Source of the DNA: Agarivorans sp. Alg241-V36
GTDB lineage: Bacteria > Pseudomonadota > Gammaproteobacteria > Enterobacterales > Celerinatantimonadaceae
Direction: 5' to 3'
Assembly: GCF_900537085.1 (NCBI RefSeq)
Contig: NZ_UNRE01000005.1
Coordinates: 292,542-356,541 of the forward strand
Length of the DNA stretch: 64,000 nucleotides
Shown here piece after piece: positions 7,677 through 16,968 of this stretch; position 1 is the stretch's first letter; every line of letters starts with the position of its first letter. Under the pieces are notes generated by a model, which made no database searches, was not told the origin of the DNA, and saw only the letters and a list, made by a program, of their open reading frames with translations. The position numbers were made by a program, and so were the translations under genes.

Positions 7677-7700
7677 GAAAATGAAACCGGTTTCATTTTC
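7677..7700. promoter_or_regulatory. 24-bp perfect palindrome, LacI/GalR-family operator type
   Basis: The core ATGAAACCGGTTTCAT (7681-7696) extends with GAAA on the left and TTTC on the right into a perfect 24-bp palindrome with a CCGG centre. LacI-family operators typically have a central CG dyad with A/T-rich arms like this. It ends 30 bp before the start codon at 7731, where a bound repressor would block transcription. No LacI-type gene is in the window. Confidence 0.7.
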
Positions 7701-7730: not shown

Positions 7731-10700
7731 ATGACAATTACTAAACCTACCGTTACAAAAGGCGGTAAAAAAACGAACCAGAGAATGGCCCATAGGGCGC
7801 ACTTTTCAAAGCATTTGTGGCTAGTTGCGAGCCTTTCTTTTGCCAGTGGAATGGCCACTGCCGAGCAAGGAATTGAGCTAAATGATAGTGGCGCGGTGGT
7901 TTACTTTGATGATCAAGGTTGGTCTGGCAACTGGAGCTATCTTTGCGTCAATGATTATTGTACTAGTGGTGACTTGGTTGGCGATCGGTGGCAAAGAAAG
8001 GTAGCCGAGATTACTCCCGTTTCTGGGCAAAATTATACCATTCAAATTAAAGTTCAAGATAATGCCACAGGGCAATTTATCTCACCTGCTTACACCGTGA
8101 CAGCCGCTGGTGGAGATGCAACTCCACCGCCAGAGAACTTAGCTCCAGAGATAAGCTTTGATGCTTTAGCTAGTGACCTAAGCACTGAAGACAGCTTATC
8201 TGTATCTGTATCTGCCAGTGATAGTGACGGTGAAGTGAGTTCTGTTTCGCTTTACCTTACCGAACCAGGTAGCGTGGAACTACTGTATTCTACTCTCAAT
8301 ACCGAACCATATCAGTGGACCATTGACCCGCTAGTTGTGGGAACTTACCAGTTGCGCGCGGTAGCAAGTGATAACGAGCAAGCGACAACACAAGCAGCCG
8401 AATCAGTCTACGTTAGTGCAGCAAGCGGGGGAGAAAACCAAGCTCCTCAAGTAAGCATTGCTGCTATAGGCAACAAGCTTGAGGTTGGCGAGTCGGTAAA
8501 CGTAACAGCAAGCGCTATTGATACTGATGGAAGCATTGCTAGCGTTGAGTTGTTTTACCGTGAACCAAACGCCAATGAAGTATCTGCTGGTGTGTTAAGC
8601 AGTGCTCCATACCAGTGGCAAATCGGTAATTTGCTAGAGGGAAGCTATAGCCTGCGCGCTGTGGCTGAAGATAACGAAGGCTTAAGCACTGATGCTGAGC
8701 AAAGCTTTGTAGTCACCAGTAATGATATTCCACCTGGGACTTGTGAAGCTCCTGGTGGTTCAGACAATCCTGCTGCTGATGCTGGAGATGGTTATCAGTT
8801 TGGTATGACATCAGATGGCTTGGTTTACCACCGAGCAATAGCAGGTCACACTCCAGGCTTTGCCATCGTTGGGTTGCAAAATAACGCGCCTAACTTACCG
8901 GCCACTGGACCATTTAATTTCACAGAAAATAATGGTGCTAGCTATCAACGTTATGAAACACAAATCCAAGGAGTAGATGCCAATACTACCTACGACTTAG
9001 AGATCCGTTTACAAGGTGGTCAGTTTAACACTGGGCAGTGTATCTATAGCATTCAAGTTAAACCGGGTCAGGGCGTTACCAGTTCTCCGTGTTACATCGC
9101 TAACAATGACAGTGGTGGCGGTGAAACACCTGTTGAGCCAGTAAAAGCAACTATTGCTAGTGTCGCTTTTGATGCAGACCTTGGGGCGTATTTGAAAGCT
9201 GGAGCTAATACTAGTCAGCCAGGTTTTAGCCTATATACCTTTGATAATGACAGCGCAAACCAAAGTAGTTGTGAGGGCGAATGCTTAGTGAATTGGCCTG
9301 CCTTATTGGTGAGTTCTCCAGATAGCTTTGCACCAGCTGGTGGCGTGAGTGGCAACTTTTCAACAATAGAGCGCACACGTAGTGATGTTGACGACTGTGG
9401 TAACCCGGTTGAAGTTGTCGAGTATCAAGTGACTTACAATGGCGAGCCTTTGTATTTTTACATAGGTGATCAAAGCGCTGAAGGTACTACCGGACATGGT
9501 GTATTTGATGTTTGGTGGGTAGCTGATGTTGAGTTATTGCCTCAATTACCTTTAGTTCAGCATCCTGCGCCGGCCTTAAAAACTGCGATTAATGGCATTA
9601 CTCCGCGCCGTTACGGTTTTGCAGTGGATATTGATGGCCGCACGGTGACGTGGCGCCCAGGCTACAGCCCTTCTCAAAATGGTCATGCTGCGGGCCTCAT
9701 TGCGCAGTTCTCGCAAGTAGGGGGAGATGGCTCTATTGGAGCAAAAGATCCTAACTTAGAGTTTTACTGTTCAAATAACCAAATTCAGTTCCACAAAGCA
9801 GATATGCCAGGAACCTTGGCTGGGCCATACAGTGCTCAAGTTCCGGGTAGCTGTTACGGAGAATACTACTACTTCTTCCGTTACCGGATGCGCGGTACCT
9901 TTAACTTAGATCCTGAATCTAACTGGGTATATTCAGCATTGTTTGTTTATGACGAAACTAATCCTGAAGATCGTATCGACCCAAGTAAACGCGAAACTGT
10001 CACCTATCGCAGCGCTAACTGGATGCGTCATGGTCACCCTCATTCGCGGGACCGTACTCAAGAATTCATCACTTTTGACGCGATGCCTTATAACACCTCA
10101 TTAATGAGTGGCTTAGAGCGTTACAACACCACCTTTATTGATGGCCCAGGTAATACCCAAATTCAGACCGAAGCCTCAGTTGCACCTATTCGTTTAGAAA
10201 TATTTGAATATGGCCAAGGTAATTGTCAGGGACCGCAGTACGTAATTGGAGCTGAAAACGCGCCTTATCCAATCCGCTCAGAATATAACTATGGGCAAAT
10301 TTTGAGCTGGGAAGCGTCATTCCCTACAGCTAATAACAGTAAGTTTGGTGGTACCAGCATTAGCTCGCAGGTCTACAACACCATGCAGCACATCACTATT
10401 GGTGCTGGATTTGAAACTGCGACAGGTGATCCTCGTTTAAACCCAGCGGGTCGTGGCTCGGTGCGTATTGTTCACTCTGATGGTTGTAACCCAGTTGAAC
10501 AAGATGAGCGCAATGCCCGCTTTGCTCAGCAGCTCACCTCAGTTGAAAGTGATGTGCAAGTGAACGACTTTTTGTTGGGGCACGACCAATTCCATGGCAT
10601 GGCTCAAGTGAGTCAGGCTAAGCCAGGCAGTACCGGGTTTGCTGGTAGTAAAGCTATTGTGGATGTAAATGGCGTGCAGAGAAAAGCCGAGAATGAGGGT

Positions 10701-11369
10701 TCATGTGGTGATTGTCACTTCCGTGATGGTCGCTCAGACTTTGTTGTTAATACCGCCAAAGGGCCACTACTTGCGCCGCCTACCTACGGTGCTGGTTTGT
10801 TGTCTTATATTGAAGGCGCTGAAGTAGGTCTTACCTGGGATGGCTCTCAGCCTACTGTTGAATTGCAGGCCGAAGCCGCCTTGTTAGCTGACTTAGGGTT
10901 AACGCCAGCCGATATTGGTGAAACAAACTTTGAGCGTATTGTTACCTATACCGAAACACTACATGTACCAGTACGTAAATACGATGCATACGTAGACCCT
11001 GCTATAGCTGATGGCGAAGTGGCTTTCCACGAAGTGGGTTGTGCTAGTTGTCACCAAGCTACCCAAAAAACTCGCAGTGATGCGCCGGTAGGTCTGCGCG
11101 ATATGTACATTCGCCCCTATACCGACATGAAACTGTGGAATGTAAACGGCGGTGAGTTTAGAACCGCACCGTTATGGGCTATTGGCCAGAACATCGAGAT
11201 GTTGGAGCGAAATGGCAAAAACACCCTGTTTATGCACGATGGCTCTGCCACCAGCTTAGAACAAGCAATTCAATTACACGATGGTGATGCTAGTGCTACC
11301 ACCGCTGCCTTTAATGCTTTATCGGCAGAGCAGCAAGCCAGCATTATCAAATTCCTGAAAACCCTATAG
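7731..11369 (+). CDS. Secreted CBM31-Ig-Ig-YxYxxD-unknown-dihaem (DHOR) protein 1
   Basis: 1,212 residues. A signal peptide with a long basic N-region ends near ATA-44. Residues 46-125 are a CBM31-like module (FDDQGWSGNWSYLCVNDYC, cysteines 72 and 77) matching those of the xylanase at 15238. Residues 138-230 and 238-330 are Ig-like repeats. Residues 353-456 are an unrecognised beta-rich module. Residues 476-598 form a YxYxxD domain (COG4315-like), with YTFDND at 502-507 and YFYIGD. Residues 605-940 match nothing I know. Residues 945-1212 are a DHOR/COG3488 di-haem domain with haem motifs CGDCH (992-996) and CASCH (1104-1108), plus RTAPLWAIG and FMHDGSATSLEQAI. It probably acts outside the cell on, or bound to, beta-1,3-xylan as a redox protein; the reaction is unknown. 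The ATG follows AATAGGGAAA. Confidence 0.8.
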   Translation: MTITKPTVTKGGKKTNQRMAHRAHFSKHLWLVASLSFASGMATAEQGIELNDSGAVVYFDDQGWSGNWSYLCVNDYCTSGDLVGDRWQRKVAEITPVSGQNYTIQIKVQDNATGQFISPAYTVTAAGGDATPPPENLAPEISFDALASDLSTEDSLSVSVSASDSDGEVSSVSLYLTEPGSVELLYSTLNTEPYQWTIDPLVVGTYQLRAVASDNEQATTQAAESVYVSAASGGENQAPQVSIAAIGNKLEVGESVNVTASAIDTDGSIASVELFYREPNANEVSAGVLSSAPYQWQIGNLLEGSYSLRAVAEDNEGLSTDAEQSFVVTSNDIPPGTCEAPGGSDNPAADAGDGYQFGMTSDGLVYHRAIAGHTPGFAIVGLQNNAPNLPATGPFNFTENNGASYQRYETQIQGVDANTTYDLEIRLQGGQFNTGQCIYSIQVKPGQGVTSSPCYIANNDSGGGETPVEPVKATIASVAFDADLGAYLKAGANTSQPGFSLYTFDNDSANQSSCEGECLVNWPALLVSSPDSFAPAGGVSGNFSTIERTRSDVDDCGNPVEVVEYQVTYNGEPLYFYIGDQSAEGTTGHGVFDVWWVADVELLPQLPLVQHPAPALKTAINGITPRRYGFAVDIDGRTVTWRPGYSPSQNGHAAGLIAQFSQVGGDGSIGAKDPNLEFYCSNNQIQFHKADMPGTLAGPYSAQVPGSCYGEYYYFFRYRMRGTFNLDPESNWVYSALFVYDETNPEDRIDPSKRETVTYRSANWMRHGHPHSRDRTQEFITFDAMPYNTSLMSGLERYNTTFIDGPGNTQIQTEASVAPIRLEIFEYGQGNCQGPQYVIGAENAPYPIRSEYNYGQILSWEASFPTANNSKFGGTSISSQVYNTMQHITIGAGFETATGDPRLNPAGRGSVRIVHSDGCNPVEQDERNARFAQQLTSVESDVQVNDFLLGHDQFHGMAQVSQAKPGSTGFAGSKAIVDVNGVQRKAENEGSCGDCHFRDGRSDFVVNTAKGPLLAPPTYGAGLLSYIEGAEVGLTWDGSQPTVELQAEAALLADLGLTPADIGETNFERIVTYTETLHVPVRKYDAYVDPAIADGEVAFHEVGCASCHQATQKTRSDAPVGLRDMYIRPYTDMKLWNVNGGEFRTAPLWAIGQNIEMLERNGKNTLFMHDGSATSLEQAIQLHDGDASATTAAFNALSAEQQASIIKFLKTL

Positions 11370-11378
11370 CTCCACTTT

Positions 11379-11425
11379 GGTCAACATAAGCTCAGTTTAC
11401 TGGGCCTATGTTTGGCCGCTTTTTT
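11379..11425 (+). terminator. Terminator or attenuator hairpin between the two dihaem genes
   Basis: The arms starting GGTCAACATAAGCTCAG and CTGGGCCTATGTTTGGCC fold around a TTTA loop with a few G-U pairs and one bulge, and TTTTTT follows at 11420-11425. It would reduce or stop read-through from protein 1 into protein 2. It also argues against the in-frame ATG at 11408, which lies inside the hairpin. Confidence 0.6.
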
Positions 11426-11470
11426 AGGAGCTTAACTTTTTACTCACAGACCAAACATGGAAGTGAAGTT

Positions 11471-14400
11471 ATGAAAAAATCAAACCCGTTAGTTGTTCAA
11501 AATAGGCGGCTAATTAGCGGAATAGTATTAGCCTTGGCGCCCGCGCTTGCTGTTTCGGCAGGTCAGGGTATCGAAGTTAGCCAAGGCTCGTCTTTGCTGT
11601 ATTTTGACGACGAGAGTTGGACCGGTTCTTGGAACTATTTGTGTCTTAATAACAATTGTATGCCAGGCGAACTTATAAATGGGCGATGGCAACGCGATGT
11701 TAGTGAAATGGTGACCGAAGGTAGCAGTTATAACATTCAGCTGAAGATACAAGATAATGCCCTAGGCCAATTTATTTCGCCTGAGTACGCGGTTCAAGCG
11801 AGCGCTGGTAGCGGTGGAGTTCAGCCGCCGGAAAATGTAGAACCATCACTATTGTTAGGTGTATCGGATAGTAGTCTTGAAGCGGGTGACAGTTTTACGG
11901 TTACCGCTAATGCCAGTGACGAAGACGGTGAAATCACTCGCGTTGCTTTTTACTTAAGCGCGCCTGGTCAAGCTGAAGTACTAACTGCCACAGTTACATC
12001 AGCGCCGTATCGTTATCTACAAAACGATACAGTAGCGGGTTCATATCAAGTGCGTGCAGTGGCCACTGACAACGCAGACGCCACCGTTGAAGATAGTGTG
12101 ACTGTTAATGTGAGTGCCATATCGGGTGAGAACACGCCACCGCAAGTGTCTATTAGCGCCAGCACTGATGGCTTAGCTGCAGGTGACTCTGTCAAGATTA
12201 ATGTTTCGGCAAGTGATGCTGACGGGCAAGTAAGTGCTGTTACTTTGTACCTTACCGAGCCAGGTGCCGCAGAAACAGCCTTGGCGAGTTTAAACGCTGC
12301 GCCTTATCAGTGGCAGCTAGACAACTTAATCGCTGGGACTTATAGCCTTAGAGTAGTGGCTGAGGATGATCAGGCTGCTGGCAGCGAATCTCAACAACAA
12401 TTTGATGTCGCTGAAGAAGACCTTGTAGAACCGCCAGCTGGTGACTATGGCGTTGAAGTGATTGATAACTCAACCGCTTTATATTGGACATTAAATCAAG
12501 ATGGCTGGGGAGGAGGTGATTACTACAGTTGCAAAAACGGTGAACAAGATTGTTACCCTGCCAGTTTAGTTAATGGTCGCTGGGAACGTCAGCATAACAA
12601 TATGGTGGTGGGGCAATCCTATAGTGCCCAGCTTAAGGTTCCTGGCTTAGGCGCAGATCAAAACCCAAGTTGGGTATTTACTTGGGATGGCGATGGCACA
12701 ACTCCGGGAGATGGAAATAATGGTGGTGATAACGGCGAAGATGGCGGCACTGTAGGCAACAAAGATCCACAAGTAGTTGCTCCAAGCGTGCCAGAAATAT
12801 TACCCGCGTTAGATTATGGCTACACAGAGGCTAGTGGTAATTTCTTGGTAGGTGGTTTAGGAAACGGCGATGATAAATTTGGATTTACTTTATACACTTT
12901 TGCTCCTGACGTTGCCGGTAGTGGTAATAGTAACTGTGTTGATTGTGCGGCATGGCCAGCACTAACCGTAAGTGATGAAGCAGCGATTGTTCGCCCATCA
13001 CGTTTATTGGGAGAACTTGGCACCATTAGCCTGCCAAACGGTGACCTACAGGTTACTTACCAAGGTAAACCATTGTACTTTAGAGCTGCAGAGCAATTGC
13101 CGGGCGAAACCGCTGGAGCGAGTGATGCGTGGCTGTTAGCTATCGTTGAAACTAGCCCTGTGCCAGAAGAGTTATATCAGCGTGCCTTAAAAACACCTAC
13201 TAATATGACAGCCCCTAGCAATGGCTTTGGCTTTAACATTAGTGGTAACCAGGTGAGTTGGGAATTTGGCTCGGTACTTGGTGGCGTTTCAGCGCCTGAG
13301 GTGAGCTTTCACTGTACGGTAGACCAAATGGTATTCCATGAAGTTGATTTGGTGGGAGGACAAGCGACTATTCCTGCCGCTTGTGCCCAAGCCAATATCT
13401 ACTGGTACTTCTTTGAGTATGCGATGAACAATCCTGGTGCTGGTAGTTATGTGATGAACAATAACTATGATTTTGATCCAGACTCTGCACGTCGCTATAC
13501 CGCTCTTTATATTAACGACGGCACTCGGATTGATTTATCTTCGCGCGAGGTGTTTAAAGATGTAGGCGCGAACTGGATGCGTTTTCGTCATCCGCGTGCT
13601 TATGACGGTGTGACCGAAGCGATTCGTGATGCCAGTCATAACTCATCCCGTTTAGCTGACTTGGCGCGTTACTCGATTGAAGCTATTGAAACTACCTCGG
13701 CTGATGGCTCAGTGAATCTGGTATTGGATCTTAATATGCCAATATCCTACACCGGTTCAGAACAAGGATTAGTGCGTTTAGAAGGTCTACAAAATGGAGC
13801 AGGGGATGCAAAACTGCCTACCTGGCTTTACAACTTTGAACCGTCTAATAACCAAACTACTTATACCCAAGGTGGTTGGAGTTATGGTCAAAACATCAGT
13901 TTTGAGATGACTGGCGTTGTTGGCTTAATTGGCGCGCAAACTTATAACACCTTCCAATACTACACGATAGGAATGGGCTTCCATTCACCTATCGGTGATC
14001 CCCGTTTGTCCTTAGTCGGCAAAGGCGGAACTCACATGGTATTTAACATTAAGAACTATGGGGGAGAGTTTAAAAACGGCCATATTGGTGCGGGTATTCA
14101 TGACATGATCATGGAAAAAGGCGCTATCTTTACCCAACATTTGACTACCTTAAACTCACCGTCTGAAGTAGATGATTTCCTATGGGGTCACCACTTATTC
14201 CATGGTGTAAAACTGCAACAATCTACTAATCAGGACCCAAGCCAAGACAACCTAGGTTCAAATCCTGGTGATACAGGTATCGGCAACGAATTACCAGAGA
14301 TTAAAGCAGGTGGCCCGGTTGCTTGTGGTGATTGTCACTACCGTGATGGTCGTGGTTCTAATGTTCTAGAAACTCCCAACGGCTTGCGGATTGCACCTCC

Positions 14401-15100
14401 TACTTTTGGCGTAGGGCTATTGCAATACATCGATGGCAGAGAAGCAGGTTTTACTTGGAACGGCAATGTGCCAACGGTACGCCAGCAAATTAAGAATGCC
14501 TTAGTGGCTGACCACGGTATTGACCCTAGCGACCCCGAACAAATTACTCCGGAAGATTTAGAGCTAATTTCTAAGTACACCGAGTACTTAACGATTCCGG
14601 CTCGAAGCCCAGGAGTTTACGACAAGCCAGGTGTTACCGAGGGAGATAAGCTGTTTCATGAAGTGGGTTGTGCAAGTTGTCATACCCCAATTCAAAAAAC
14701 CAGTGACCAAGCACCCGAAGCGTTCCGCAATTTAGTTATCCGCCCTTATACCGATATGAAACGTCATAAAGTAGCAGGCGGAACATATCGTACAGCTCCA
14801 CTATGGGGGTTGGGCCGTAACATCGACTTATTAGAAAACAATAATAAGTTAGTGAACGGTGAAATAGATATTGGTATCGCCCTGTATGACGGCTCTGACG
14901 AAGAGCAAAAAGAAGCTCACCATATGCGAGAACGCGCACTATTGTTCTTGCATGACGGCCGAGCGACGACATTGCATGACGCCATTATTATGCACCAAGC
15001 CGAGGGCAGTGAAGCCGCCGCTAACTCTGCGGTAGCAGCTTACTCCGCTTTGTCAGAGGCAGAGCAACAGCAAGTTATTCAGTTCTTGCGATCTCTTTAA
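11471..15100 (+). CDS. Secreted CBM31-Ig-Ig-CBM31-YxYxxD-unknown-dihaem (DHOR) protein 2
   Basis: 1,209 residues from the ATG at 11471. I prefer it to the ATG at 11408 because it opens a clean signal peptide (MKKSNPLVV to VSA-30) and has GGAAGTG upstream. Domains follow protein 1: CBM31-like at 32-110 (cysteines 58 and 63), Ig-like at 122-215 and 222-314, then a second CBM31-like module at 326-406 (cysteines 354 and 361) where protein 1 has a different module. A G/D/N-rich linker leads to a YxYxxD domain at about 445-560 (YTFAPD). The unknown domain covers 565-890. The DHOR domain, 900-1209, has CGDCH at 952-956 and CASCH at 1067-1071, then YRTAPLWGLG and FLHDGRATTLHDAI. It is a tandem paralogue of protein 1, diverged well beyond recent duplication. 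Its function is inferred as substrate-bound extracellular electron transfer or peroxidase-like chemistry. Confidence 0.8.
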   Translation: MKKSNPLVVQNRRLISGIVLALAPALAVSAGQGIEVSQGSSLLYFDDESWTGSWNYLCLNNNCMPGELINGRWQRDVSEMVTEGSSYNIQLKIQDNALGQFISPEYAVQASAGSGGVQPPENVEPSLLLGVSDSSLEAGDSFTVTANASDEDGEITRVAFYLSAPGQAEVLTATVTSAPYRYLQNDTVAGSYQVRAVATDNADATVEDSVTVNVSAISGENTPPQVSISASTDGLAAGDSVKINVSASDADGQVSAVTLYLTEPGAAETALASLNAAPYQWQLDNLIAGTYSLRVVAEDDQAAGSESQQQFDVAEEDLVEPPAGDYGVEVIDNSTALYWTLNQDGWGGGDYYSCKNGEQDCYPASLVNGRWERQHNNMVVGQSYSAQLKVPGLGADQNPSWVFTWDGDGTTPGDGNNGGDNGEDGGTVGNKDPQVVAPSVPEILPALDYGYTEASGNFLVGGLGNGDDKFGFTLYTFAPDVAGSGNSNCVDCAAWPALTVSDEAAIVRPSRLLGELGTISLPNGDLQVTYQGKPLYFRAAEQLPGETAGASDAWLLAIVETSPVPEELYQRALKTPTNMTAPSNGFGFNISGNQVSWEFGSVLGGVSAPEVSFHCTVDQMVFHEVDLVGGQATIPAACAQANIYWYFFEYAMNNPGAGSYVMNNNYDFDPDSARRYTALYINDGTRIDLSSREVFKDVGANWMRFRHPRAYDGVTEAIRDASHNSSRLADLARYSIEAIETTSADGSVNLVLDLNMPISYTGSEQGLVRLEGLQNGAGDAKLPTWLYNFEPSNNQTTYTQGGWSYGQNISFEMTGVVGLIGAQTYNTFQYYTIGMGFHSPIGDPRLSLVGKGGTHMVFNIKNYGGEFKNGHIGAGIHDMIMEKGAIFTQHLTTLNSPSEVDDFLWGHHLFHGVKLQQSTNQDPSQDNLGSNPGDTGIGNELPEIKAGGPVACGDCHYRDGRGSNVLETPNGLRIAPPTFGVGLLQYIDGREAGFTWNGNVPTVRQQIKNALVADHGIDPSDPEQITPEDLELISKYTEYLTIPARSPGVYDKPGVTEGDKLFHEVGCASCHTPIQKTSDQAPEAFRNLVIRPYTDMKRHKVAGGTYRTAPLWGLGRNIDLLENNNKLVNGEIDIGIALYDGSDEEQKEAHHMRERALLFLHDGRATTLHDAIIMHQAEGSEAAANSAVAAYSALSEAEQQQVIQFLRSL

Positions 15101-15109
15101 TTTAACTTA

Positions 15110-15131
15110 GGTGAGCACCTTGGTGCTCACC
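15110..15131 (+). terminator. Perfect 10-bp hairpin after dihaem gene 2
   Basis: GGTGAGCACC (15110-15119) and GGTGCTCACC (15122-15131) form a perfect stem with a 2-base gap. There is no T-run after it, so it may stabilise the mRNA 3' end or weaken read-through rather than act as a full terminator. Confidence 0.45.
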
Positions 15132-15237
15132 CCTTCATCGCTTTCAAAAAGGCATTAGACATTGATTGTTCGATGGGCTTTTTAGCATCTGCGATATACA
15201 TCCACCGTGATTAAACGGTAAACATAGGGAAATAGAA

Positions 15238-16968
15238 ATGACAAAACCACACTTAAAAGCACTCGCTTTAGCAATTGGCATAAGCATGCCTATGCTTGGG
15301 TATTCGGCGGTGTTCGAGCCTAGCGATGGGCGTTTATTCACCGTTGGTCAAGACGTTGACAGCATCAATCAAATGCATAACGACACCAGTATAAATGCTG
15401 GAGGTGTGACCGGTTATGTAGGCATTGCTTCCTTAGACGGTTTGCATGGAAATGCCGACGCAGGGGCAGGCCGAAACAACTTAGATGAGTTAGCAAGCTT
15501 GTATCCTGATCGCGCTATGGTGGTTGGTATCTCGATGAATGGCCAAGTAAGTGCGGTGGCAAACGGTACTTACAACGACAACATTACTAATTTATTAGAA
15601 ACCTTGGCATCTTACGACCGGCCCGTTTATTTACGTTGGGCTTATGAGGTTGATGGCCCATGGAATGGCCACAACCAAGCAGACTTAATCCGCTCTTGGC
15701 AGTATGTACATGGGCGCATTCAGGAAATGGGTATTGCTAATAAAATTGCGATGGTTTGGCAGGTGGCGTCTTACTGCCCAAATCCTCGAGGTCAGTTAGA
15801 GAGCTGGTATCCGGGTAATCAATATGTTGATTGGATAGGCTTATCGTATTTTGCTCCCCAAGATTGTAACTGGGATGCGGTAAACGAAGCGGCTAATTTT
15901 GCTAAGGCAAAAGGTAAGCCACTATTTATTAATGAAGCTAGCCCTCAGCGTTACCAGATTGCAGATTTAAACTACTCGAGTGATCCCGCCCAAGGAACTA
16001 ATCGTCAAAGCAAAACCGCCCAGCAAATTTGGCAGGAGTGGTTCACGCCTTTCTTTAACTTTATCGAACAATATGACGTTAAAGCGATTACCTATATAAA
16101 TGCGGATTGGGACAACCAAACTCGTTGGGGGGACTTTGGTGATGGCTACGGAGAAGGTTACTGGGGAGATAGCCGAGTACAAGCCAATAATGAGATAGAG
16201 CAAAACTTCACCCAACAGATAAATGATGGTTCATGGTTATTACAATCTAACGAACTATTCGAAAAGCTTGCATATGGTGAAACACCTACAGAGCCAGAAG
16301 AACCTGTTGACCCAGAAGAGCCAATTGATCCAGAACAACCGATAGACCCTGAAGAACCCATTGACCCACGTGGTGACCAAGGCATCAGTTACGTTGACGA
16401 TGACAGCTTAGTGGTTTACCACAAAGATATGGGCTGGTCGGCATCGTGGAACTATTTGTGTTTAGATGCTTACTGTATTCCTGGCACCTTAGTTGATGGT
16501 TTTTACCAAGTACAGTTTGATAACGTGAATCTAGGACAAAGCTATAACATCCAGTTTAAAGTTCAAGACAACGCCAATGGGCAATTTATTAGTCAAGAAA
16601 CCACTGTAATGTTTAACAAGGGGAGCCAAACACCAGACCTTCCAGAAGAGCCCGCCGAACCGGAAGAACCGACTGAACCAGAAGTACCTGTTGAGCCAGA
16701 GGAGCCTAATGAACCTGGCACATTACCAAACTTCGGTATTGTTGGTTTAACGGACAATAGTTTTAAAGTAGTAAGGTTGAATGAAGGTTGGACAGCGGGT
16801 TTTGTTTATATGTGTGTAAACAGTGATTGCCGAGTACCAAGCTTAGTAGATGGTTACTACCAGTATCAATGGAATGGCAGCATAGGATCTCAGTACAACA
16901 TTAGCTTTAAAGTTCAGGACAATAGTGTTGGGCAAGTGATTGAAGAAGCGACAGCAACGTTTAATTAA
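15238..16968 (+). CDS. GH26 endo-beta-1,3-xylanase with two C-terminal CBM31 modules
   Basis: 576 residues with a signal peptide ending YSA-24. Residues 25-350 are a GH26 catalytic domain of the beta-1,3-xylanase type: TVGQDVDSIN, NADAGAGRNN, YLRWAYEVDGPWNGHN and FINEASPQRYQ are shared with Vibrio beta-1,3-xylanases as I remember them. By the family rule Glu137 is the acid/base and Glu233 the nucleophile. A Pro-Glu-Asp linker (350-378) leads to CBM31 no. 1 (381-460, cysteines 408/413); a second such linker leads to CBM31 no. 2 (about 498-576, cysteines 526/531). The secreted enzyme cuts beta-1,3-xylan, the wall polymer of some green and red algae. The start shares the ATAGGGAAAT leader seen before the gene at 7731. 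Confidence 0.92.
   Translation: MTKPHLKALALAIGISMPMLGYSAVFEPSDGRLFTVGQDVDSINQMHNDTSINAGGVTGYVGIASLDGLHGNADAGAGRNNLDELASLYPDRAMVVGISMNGQVSAVANGTYNDNITNLLETLASYDRPVYLRWAYEVDGPWNGHNQADLIRSWQYVHGRIQEMGIANKIAMVWQVASYCPNPRGQLESWYPGNQYVDWIGLSYFAPQDCNWDAVNEAANFAKAKGKPLFINEASPQRYQIADLNYSSDPAQGTNRQSKTAQQIWQEWFTPFFNFIEQYDVKAITYINADWDNQTRWGDFGDGYGEGYWGDSRVQANNEIEQNFTQQINDGSWLLQSNELFEKLAYGETPTEPEEPVDPEEPIDPEQPIDPEEPIDPRGDQGISYVDDDSLVVYHKDMGWSASWNYLCLDAYCIPGTLVDGFYQVQFDNVNLGQSYNIQFKVQDNANGQFISQETTVMFNKGSQTPDLPEEPAEPEEPTEPEVPVEPEEPNEPGTLPNFGIVGLTDNSFKVVRLNEGWTAGFVYMCVNSDCRVPSLVDGYYQYQWNGSIGSQYNISFKVQDNSVGQVIEEATATFN

Follow-up and report, generated by a model that had tools for sequence, protein, structure and literature searches.

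Putative dihaem proteins carrying CBM31 and their probable link to beta-1,3-xylan in Agarivorans and other bacteria

beta-1,3-Xylan, a tough sugar polymer of seaweed cell walls, adopts a triple-helical structure, as does beta-1,3-glucan. Both are also sizeable algal carbon pools, a view drawn in part from Zhang et al. (2022; PMC9638140) and in part from general background. The closest described system is Xyn65 of Gilvimarinus xylanilyticus HB14, which grows on 1,3-xylan and secretes this GH26-CBM31-CBM6-Big-DHOR 1,3-xylanase; of four substrates tested, Xyn65 is active on 1,3-xylan only, and its authors consider the DHOR part, untested there, to be either an oxidoreductase or a binding or stabilizing module (Zhang et al., 2022; PMC9638140; here and below, cited papers are quoted from the parts of their text that were available). 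On another insoluble polymer, Cbp2D and Cbp2E of Cellvibrio japonicus are needed for growth on cellulose; the 2025 work on them hypothesizes that the pair cuts the polymer directly and calls for in vitro work (PMC12542752), and the CjX183 domain of Cbp2D reduces lytic polysaccharide monooxygenases (LPMOs) in vitro (PMC8981238). Here, we compare with these systems a three-gene cluster from Agarivorans sp. Alg241-V36. It lies in a stretch of 64,000 nucleotides, hereafter the window (contig NZ_UNRE01000005.1, positions 292,542 to 356,541), and encodes two large proteins, P1 and P2, each with a CBM31 and a putative dihaem domain, followed by a beta-1,3-xylanase. The original prediction, made from the letters of the window, knew of no described system of this kind, and in this it was wrong: the GH26-CBM31-DHOR fusion has been known since the publication of Xyn65 (PMC9638140), and what is little described are the stand-alone CBM31-dihaem proteins and the wider system, for neither of which a description was found in the open-access literature, among the matches listed.

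What might P1 and P2 do? Together with a fused relative encoded on another contig, they very probably have a redox role dedicated to beta-1,3-xylan. The tie to this polymer is stronger than the window alone could reveal because the redox part is fused to GH26, co-occurs with CBM31 and GH26 across genomes, is often found with them even when searched for without CBM31, and is encoded, in this genome, at loci that share operator-like sites with a further GH26 locus. For the further step, that the dihaem module acts directly on the polymer, we see about an even chance. Tentatively, and as something possible rather than probable, we propose that a conserved domain and the dihaem core together form a new class of haem enzymes, present in at least four phyla, which would break beta-1,3-linked triple-helical polysaccharides oxidatively (beta-1,3-xylan and, in a sister branch, beta-1,3-glucan), in an LPMO-like role with a CCP/MauG-type dihaem center in place of copper.

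The gene cluster and its fused relative

The genes for P1, P2 and the xylanase lie head to tail on the plus strand, separated by 38 and 137 nt, exactly at the coordinates predicted for them (Table 1). Both P1 and P2 were expected to combine a signal peptide, a CBM31 and a two-haem DHOR domain, and this architecture holds with one restriction. Signal-peptide-like N-terminal stretches are evident by eye; the N-terminal modules are CBM31 in a Pfam search (AlcCBM31, PF11606: 45.8 bits in P1, 60.7 in P2, 143.9 in the xylanase and 181.3 in the fused protein, against a curated cut-off of 25), with two stretches each in P2 and in the xylanase; and two CxxCH motifs are present in each. DHOR (PF06537) is also above its curated cut-off of 22, at 65.6 bits in P1 and 57.0 bits in P2, in both cases over only a part of its 499 positions (341-499 in P1; 324-443 and 454-499 in P2). 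Between CBM31 and the dihaem domain, P1 and P2 hold two Big_7 immunoglobulin-like (Ig) domains, a Lipoprotein_15 region and a conserved domain of about 335 residues, for which no Pfam match was found in P1; P1 residues 335-468 (8733-9134; 134 residues from the Ig domains to Lipoprotein_15) match nothing in Pfam, not even with the threshold relaxed to E 1. The third gene encodes, by its match to a solved structure, a GH26 beta-1,3-xylanase: residues 24-349 align with the beta-1,3-xylanase XYL4 (2ddx) at E 7.6e-140, and the protein contains no CxxCH motif.

A third haem protein is encoded on contig C6 (L007:8584-13914, minus strand; 1776 aa) and unites these parts in one chain: a GH26-like domain is combined with two CBM31, with Ig domains and Lipoprotein_15, and with the conserved and dihaem domains. 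It has both CxxCH motifs and, when aligned to the xylanase, retains both GH26 Glu positions that we take to be catalytic. Xyl4 uses two Glu residues for catalysis (PMC9638140).

How does this set compare with Xyn65? The fused protein shares with it GH26, CBM31 and DHOR, and the Xyn65 module (L019:2665-7686) is matched by a profile built from P1, P2 and the fused protein; unlike Xyn65, P1 and P2 are free-standing haem proteins that lack GH26. Directly downstream of xyn65 lies a P1 orthologue (L019:8192-11830) whose redox part is 70% identical to that of P1. The available text of PMC9638140 makes no mention of this orthologue, of the unclassified domain or of the spread over phyla.

Distribution, fusions and operator-like sites

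If CBM31 is left out of the query, what remains of the link? When only the redox part was used to search genome contigs, the module turned up at 32 loci in four phyla: Pseudomonadota, Bacteroidota, Acidobacteriota and Planctomycetota. CBM31 lies within the open reading frame (ORF) of the module at 23 of these loci and, at L022 and L050, in the ORF directly preceding it; a GH26 relative is fused to the module or present within the flanking DNA examined at 16 of 32, L045 and L046 having one near the module. Across whole genomes, CBM31 (Pfam) occurs in 24 of the 29 genomes that bear the module, the five misses being planctomycetes (genome-wide CBM31 and AA10 counts cover 30 of the 32 loci, or 29 genomes, L027 and L045 being omitted since by title they belong to genomes already represented by L024 and L042). 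A Cys-rich N-terminal domain of Phycisphaerae (L031), alike by eye, was considered as a divergent CBM31 and rejected (hhalign probability 3%, E 0.015; nothing in Pfam). Aliagarivorans marinus has the same P1-P2-xylanase gene order. In Aliagarivorans taiwanensis (L022:8162-11821), the P1 orthologue is split into two ORFs, with one stop inside the match, and P2 and the xylanase are intact.

Co-occurrence of CBM31 and DHOR in other genomes, which the original prediction had named as a check, was counted in 295 genomes of the window's order, chosen independently of the finding; full modules were counted at E 1e-50 or better, and in the module searches of this sample and of the class sample below at most three candidates per genome were scored. 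Six genomes have CBM31, and these six are also the ones with the full module; relatives of the xylanase's GH26 occur in seven, namely those six and one with a lone GH26 (408-aa frame). Apart from its module proteins, each of the six encodes one or more GH26 in frames of 401-618 aa, so that the link between CBM31, module and GH26 does not rest on fusions alone. Were the genomes independent, such overlaps would arise by chance with probabilities of 1.1e-12 and 8.0e-12, figures that are overstated given that the six genomes represent four genera and that module proteins carry CBM31. Within the window's genus, two of the seven genomes shown have CBM31, module and GH26, and five have none of them. 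In a class-level sample (369 genomes), CBM31 and the full module each occur in one genome, the window's own, which is too rare for testing; 21 other genomes match the module only from profile position 509 or later.

A tree of the module (41 rows, a quick method with one long-branch warning) contains well-supported P1, P2 and P3 clades, a Xyn65 clade, a clade of Bacteroidota and Planctomycetota and a smaller clade of Bacteroidota. GH26-module fusions appear in three separate clades (P3, P1 and Xyn65), and further fused genes are present in genomes G518, G458 and G476. Sulfidibacter (Acidobacteriota) is nested in the otherwise gammaproteobacterial Xyn65 clade and the closest neighbour of P1 is Gilvimarinus, not a member of its own family; these placements suggest horizontal transfer.

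Operator-like sites in the genome may reflect shared control. A perfect 16-bp palindrome, ATGAAACCGGTTTCAT, predicted to be a LacI-type operator, precedes P1, and eight sites with at most two mismatches to it occur in the whole genome. Six of these are found at three loci: (i) one at P1; (ii) two at the fused gene, about 275 nt before the start and inside the 5' coding part; and (iii) three in an intergenic region on contig C12, between a GH26-CBM6 gene and a divergent 443-aa gene; the other two lie elsewhere. If no more than one mismatch is allowed, four sites remain, all of them at these loci: the one preceding P1, the one within the 5' coding part of the fused gene and two of those in the C12 intergenic region. 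The reversed pattern, used as a control, gives 6 forward sites against the 8 found genome-wide with the same mismatch limit; the number of sites is therefore near chance, and it is their placement that counts as evidence. Since the motif was picked out of the P1, fused-gene and C12 regions themselves, we attach no p-value to this placement. At up to three mismatches the window contains a single site, compared with 0.15 per 64 kb in 20 shuffles; a sigma-70 scan before P1 returned 7 matches against a mean of 3.5 in shuffles, and none is used as evidence. Aliagarivorans has sites related to ATGAAACCGGTTTCAT at GH26 and close to where P1 probably starts. In Neiella and another genome of its family, the fused xylanase-dihaem genes are preceded by a LacI-type palindrome of another kind, near ATGTTATCGATAACAT (L102:647, L103:6294, L104:7334, L105:11720). 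P1, the fused gene and the C12 GH26 gene are predicted to be co-regulated by a LacI-family protein, and the regulon was perhaps kept while the operator changed in Neiella and its relative.

The C12 locus (L097:7995-17400) comprises the GH26-CBM6 gene, a PhyH-like dioxygenase, a LacI-family regulator (L097:13088-14095) and an ABC transporter for sugars, whose binding protein was identified with Pfam and whose permeases were recognized by eye, and is likely an uptake locus for 1,3-xylo-oligosaccharides. Elsewhere in the genome, DHOR matches a gene on contig C1 over the full profile and, in part, the fused gene on contig C6. In the window, an alginate lyase gene (PF08787; 19857-20786, minus strand) about 3 kb past the xylanase is consistent with a diet of algal polysaccharides.

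Is the association limited to xylan? Two long-frame matches in the class sample combine DHOR with CBM56: a CBM56-F5/8C-DHOR protein (1080 aa) and a GH16-CBM6/35-CBM56-F5/8C-DHOR protein (1627 aa; L116:2148-7028, minus strand, genome G285), whose laminarinase-like GH16 domain matches solved endo-1,3-beta-glucanases, at best with 1.1e-22. This GH16-CBM56-DHOR protein suggests a beta-1,3-glucan counterpart of the GH26-CBM31-dihaem fusion. In planctomycetes, CBM56-DHOR proteins are encoded beside the module gene on the minus strand (L043:2248-5043 and L037:5798-8578; the mechanically called module ORF of L037 overlaps the CBM56-DHOR gene and is probably too long). The module proteins of these two loci follow dockerin-like repeats, recognized by eye, and an unassigned Cys-rich domain. 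Judged by these architectures, dihaem proteins seem tied more widely to beta-1,3-glycans.

Table 1. Coordinates in the window of the predicted operator, the three genes and their parts.
Feature	Position	Strand	Detail and basis
Predicted LacI-type operator, ATGAAACCGGTTTCAT	7681..7696		Perfect 16-bp palindrome, 34 nt before P1 start codon; whole-genome scan
P1: CBM31, 2x Big_7, unassigned, Lipoprotein_15, unclassified beta domain, dihaem domain	7731..11369	+	1212 aa; signal-peptide-like start
P1 CBM31	7881..8081	+	Residues 51-117; Pfam, aligned
P1 Lipoprotein_15 region	9135..9545	+	62.6 bits, 2 stretches
P1 conserved domain without Pfam match	9546..10550	+	First ~125 residues modelled as CBM56-like beta sandwich
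P1 dihaem domain, predicted bacterial CCP/MauG fold	10647..11366	+	Model and sequence match
P1 first haem motif, CGDCH	10704..10718	+	Residue 992; CxxCH motif scan
P1 second haem motif, CASCH	11040..11054	+	Residue 1104; CxxCH motif scan
P2: P1 paralogue, equal architecture plus second CBM31 stretch	11408..15100	+	1230 aa
P2 N-terminal CBM31	11594..11776	+	Residues 63-123; Pfam
P2 conserved domain	13160..14158	+	Aligned to P1 counterpart
P2 first haem motif, CGDCH	14324..14338	+	Residue 973; CxxCH motif scan
P2 second haem motif, CASCH	14669..14683	+	Residue 1088; CxxCH motif scan
Xylanase gene: GH26 beta-1,3-xylanase with two C-terminal CBM31	15238..16968	+	576 aa; profile and structure-sequence match
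GH26 catalytic domain of xylanase	15307..16284	+	Match to solved structure; used as search query
CBM31-1 of xylanase	16354..16614	+	Pfam, aligned
CBM31-2 of xylanase	16717..16965	+	Pfam, aligned

Fold, haem pocket and possible action of the module

An AlphaFold2 model of P1 residues 469-1212, built on 40 sequences (pLDDT 86.5, pTM 0.88), has Foldseek matches at E <=0.001 to MacA and YhjA only, both of the cytochrome c peroxidase (CCP)/MauG superfamily. The last ~270 residues of the model (about 474-744) adopt a CCP/MauG fold (Z 9.9-14.2, rmsd 2.5-3.8, 202-229 residues aligned), with Z 14.2 for the gamma subunit of hydrazine synthase, 13.8 for MauG and 13.2 for the di-heme peroxidase 1iqc, which the domain also matches in sequence (E 2.8e-7). 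Model and sequence together place the C-terminal domain of P1 and P2 in the bacterial CCP/MauG dihaem superfamily. Conservation was read from an alignment of 40 module sequences from four phyla; rows that were broken or had a profile score under 380 were omitted: the P1 gene that is split in L022, the fragment L045:2-742, two pieces of L046, L047 (no CxxCH) and, as distant relatives, the CBM56-DHOR proteins found in L037 and L043. The fused protein of the window's genome was likewise outside the alignment. Two CxxCH motifs are present in all 40; the Trp of a WDG motif is retained in 40 and a Gln ten residues on in 39; an Asp two residues before the position of the CCP distal Glu is invariant. 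In CCP, the canonical distal Pro and Glu belong to the pocket of the N-terminal haem.

In the conserved domain, Trp, Arg, His, Tyr, Asp and Pro residues are invariant in all 40 sequences (W296, R298, H301, P302, R329, Y414, D432, P433 and R434, in model numbering), which argues for a working site, not a linker. Its first part resembles CBM56 (5t7a: Z 8.1, rmsd 3.2, 85 residues aligned), a score barely above those of unrelated Ig-like rows, and in the larger P1 model the similarity (Z 7.5) is near background; a separate model of the domain has no Foldseek match at E 0.001 or better. The second half (about 143-335 of that model, P1 ~748-940) is hardly covered by the listed structures, and with a pLDDT of 41-81 for this block no new fold is claimed.

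The current model is as follows. P1, P2 and the fused protein would be secreted, substrate-anchored dihaem oxidoreductases, held on the insoluble polymer by CBM31 and perhaps also by the CBM56-like sandwich. By analogy with CCP and MauG, the C-terminal haem, if loaded, would relay electrons to the N-terminal haem, the presumed active site, and the dihaem center together with the preceding conserved domain would oxidize the polysaccharide itself, with O2 or H2O2 as the co-substrate. Oxidation would open the chains and present chain ends to the GH26 endo-xylanase encoded next door or residing in the same polypeptide.

Several observations weigh against the model. The five planctomycete loci have neither a recognizable CBM31 nor a GH26 within the flanking DNA examined. 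In Acanthopleuribacter, an ORF (L047:8624-10960) combines CBM31 and the conserved domain and has no CxxCH; it lies near a contig end, and truncation is possible. The co-occurrence count is partly built in, for module proteins themselves bear CBM31 and related genomes are not independent. Recombinant Xyn65 yielded ordinary hydrolytic 1,3-xylo-oligosaccharides (PMC9638140). In the haem pocket, all 40 aligned sequences have Ala where CCP has its distal Pro, and 31 of them have Gly in place of its distal Glu; peroxide chemistry may thus have been lost or changed in the module.

Could the module instead serve an LPMO? As proposed for Cbp2D, it would shuttle electrons on the substrate surface to an LPMO or another oxidase. 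The CBM-plus-CxxCH architecture does resemble that of Cbp2D, whose CjX183 domain can reduce LPMOs (PMC8981238), and 15 of the 29 module-bearing genomes have an AA10 match; yet 14 have none (nine of them isolates by title; genome completeness is not stated), the single AA10 match of the window's genome carries CBM2, not CBM31, and P1, P2 and the fused protein have no LPMO_10 (PF03067) match. Where it is retained without an LPMO, the module must have another job; moreover, the fusions join it to a hydrolase, which needs no electrons. We consider electron transfer of this kind unlikely, and a partner LPMO, which the original prediction had invoked, was rejected as a general explanation, possible as it is in some species. 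Another part of that proposal, a probably secreted, CBM31-bearing redox set tied to beta-1,3-xylan, is supported by domains, fusions, co-occurrence and predicted co-regulation.

A protective peroxidase is a still less likely alternative: the module would remove H2O2 at the algal surface so that CBM31 enzymes survive, leaving the polymer untouched. The CCP/MauG fold and the match to 1iqc speak for a peroxidase, one of the options first envisaged for P1 and P2, and the distal Pro and Glu positions, which are not retained, speak against it; besides, a large conserved extra domain and fusions to a substrate-specific CBM and GH would be superfluous for peroxide removal. Least probable is a degenerate binding scaffold, one option of the Xyn65 authors, in which the dihaem domain has no redox function and merely binds or stabilizes: recombinant Xyn65 from E. 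coli is active as a xylanase (PMC9638140) and the module-like ORF near a contig end in L047 lacks CxxCH, but both motifs persist throughout the alignment, in 40 sequences that span four phyla, which would not be expected of a relic, that ORF and some fragments being outside the alignment.

Direct oxidation of the polymer by the dihaem module would bear on a broader question, that of how bacteria attack insoluble polysaccharides by redox chemistry other than, or in addition to, that of copper LPMOs. Cultured bacteria offer a set for addressing it whose members have been fused repeatedly and share operator-like sites. Loading haem into Xyn65, an enzyme already purified, would make the question of direct attack testable.

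Comparison with other redox systems

Cbp2D and Cbp2E resemble P1 and P2 in being CBM-bearing redox-type proteins. Their parts differ: both have CBM2 and a YceI-like X158, Cbp2D adds X132 and X183 with a single CxxCH, and the substrate is cellulose, whereas P1 and P2 combine CBM31 with a CCP/MauG-type dihaem domain and are tied to beta-1,3-xylan. No X183- or X122-named entry appeared among the matches listed in profile searches against solved structures, where the presence of such entries is unverified. TERTU_2913 and TERTU_3803 of Teredinibacter turnerae are likewise large and have both a signal peptide and cytochrome domains, to which TERTU_3803 adds CBM10 and CBM2; their domains are X122, X132, X173 and X183, and the available text names neither CBM31 nor DHOR in them (PMC10916295).

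A mechanistic analogue is the rubber oxygenase RoxA, which is secreted, has two haems and cleaves rubber with O2 at the N-terminal one (PMC6797691). Like P1 and P2 as proposed, it is a secreted dihaem protein acting on an insoluble polymer; unlike them, it uses polyisoprene, and no CBM or GH partner is named in the available text (PMC6797691). RoxA does not figure in the sequence and fold matches listed for the module, which does not exclude kinship; the comparison is one of mechanism only.

Set against the DHOR family itself (PF06537), P1 and P2 match the C-terminal part of the profile and leave its N-terminal two thirds unmatched; a different upstream domain is present. Finally, with haem motifs and no copper enzyme domain, P1 and P2 differ from AA10 LPMOs in their parts and may share with them a role: the oxidative opening of an insoluble polysaccharide.

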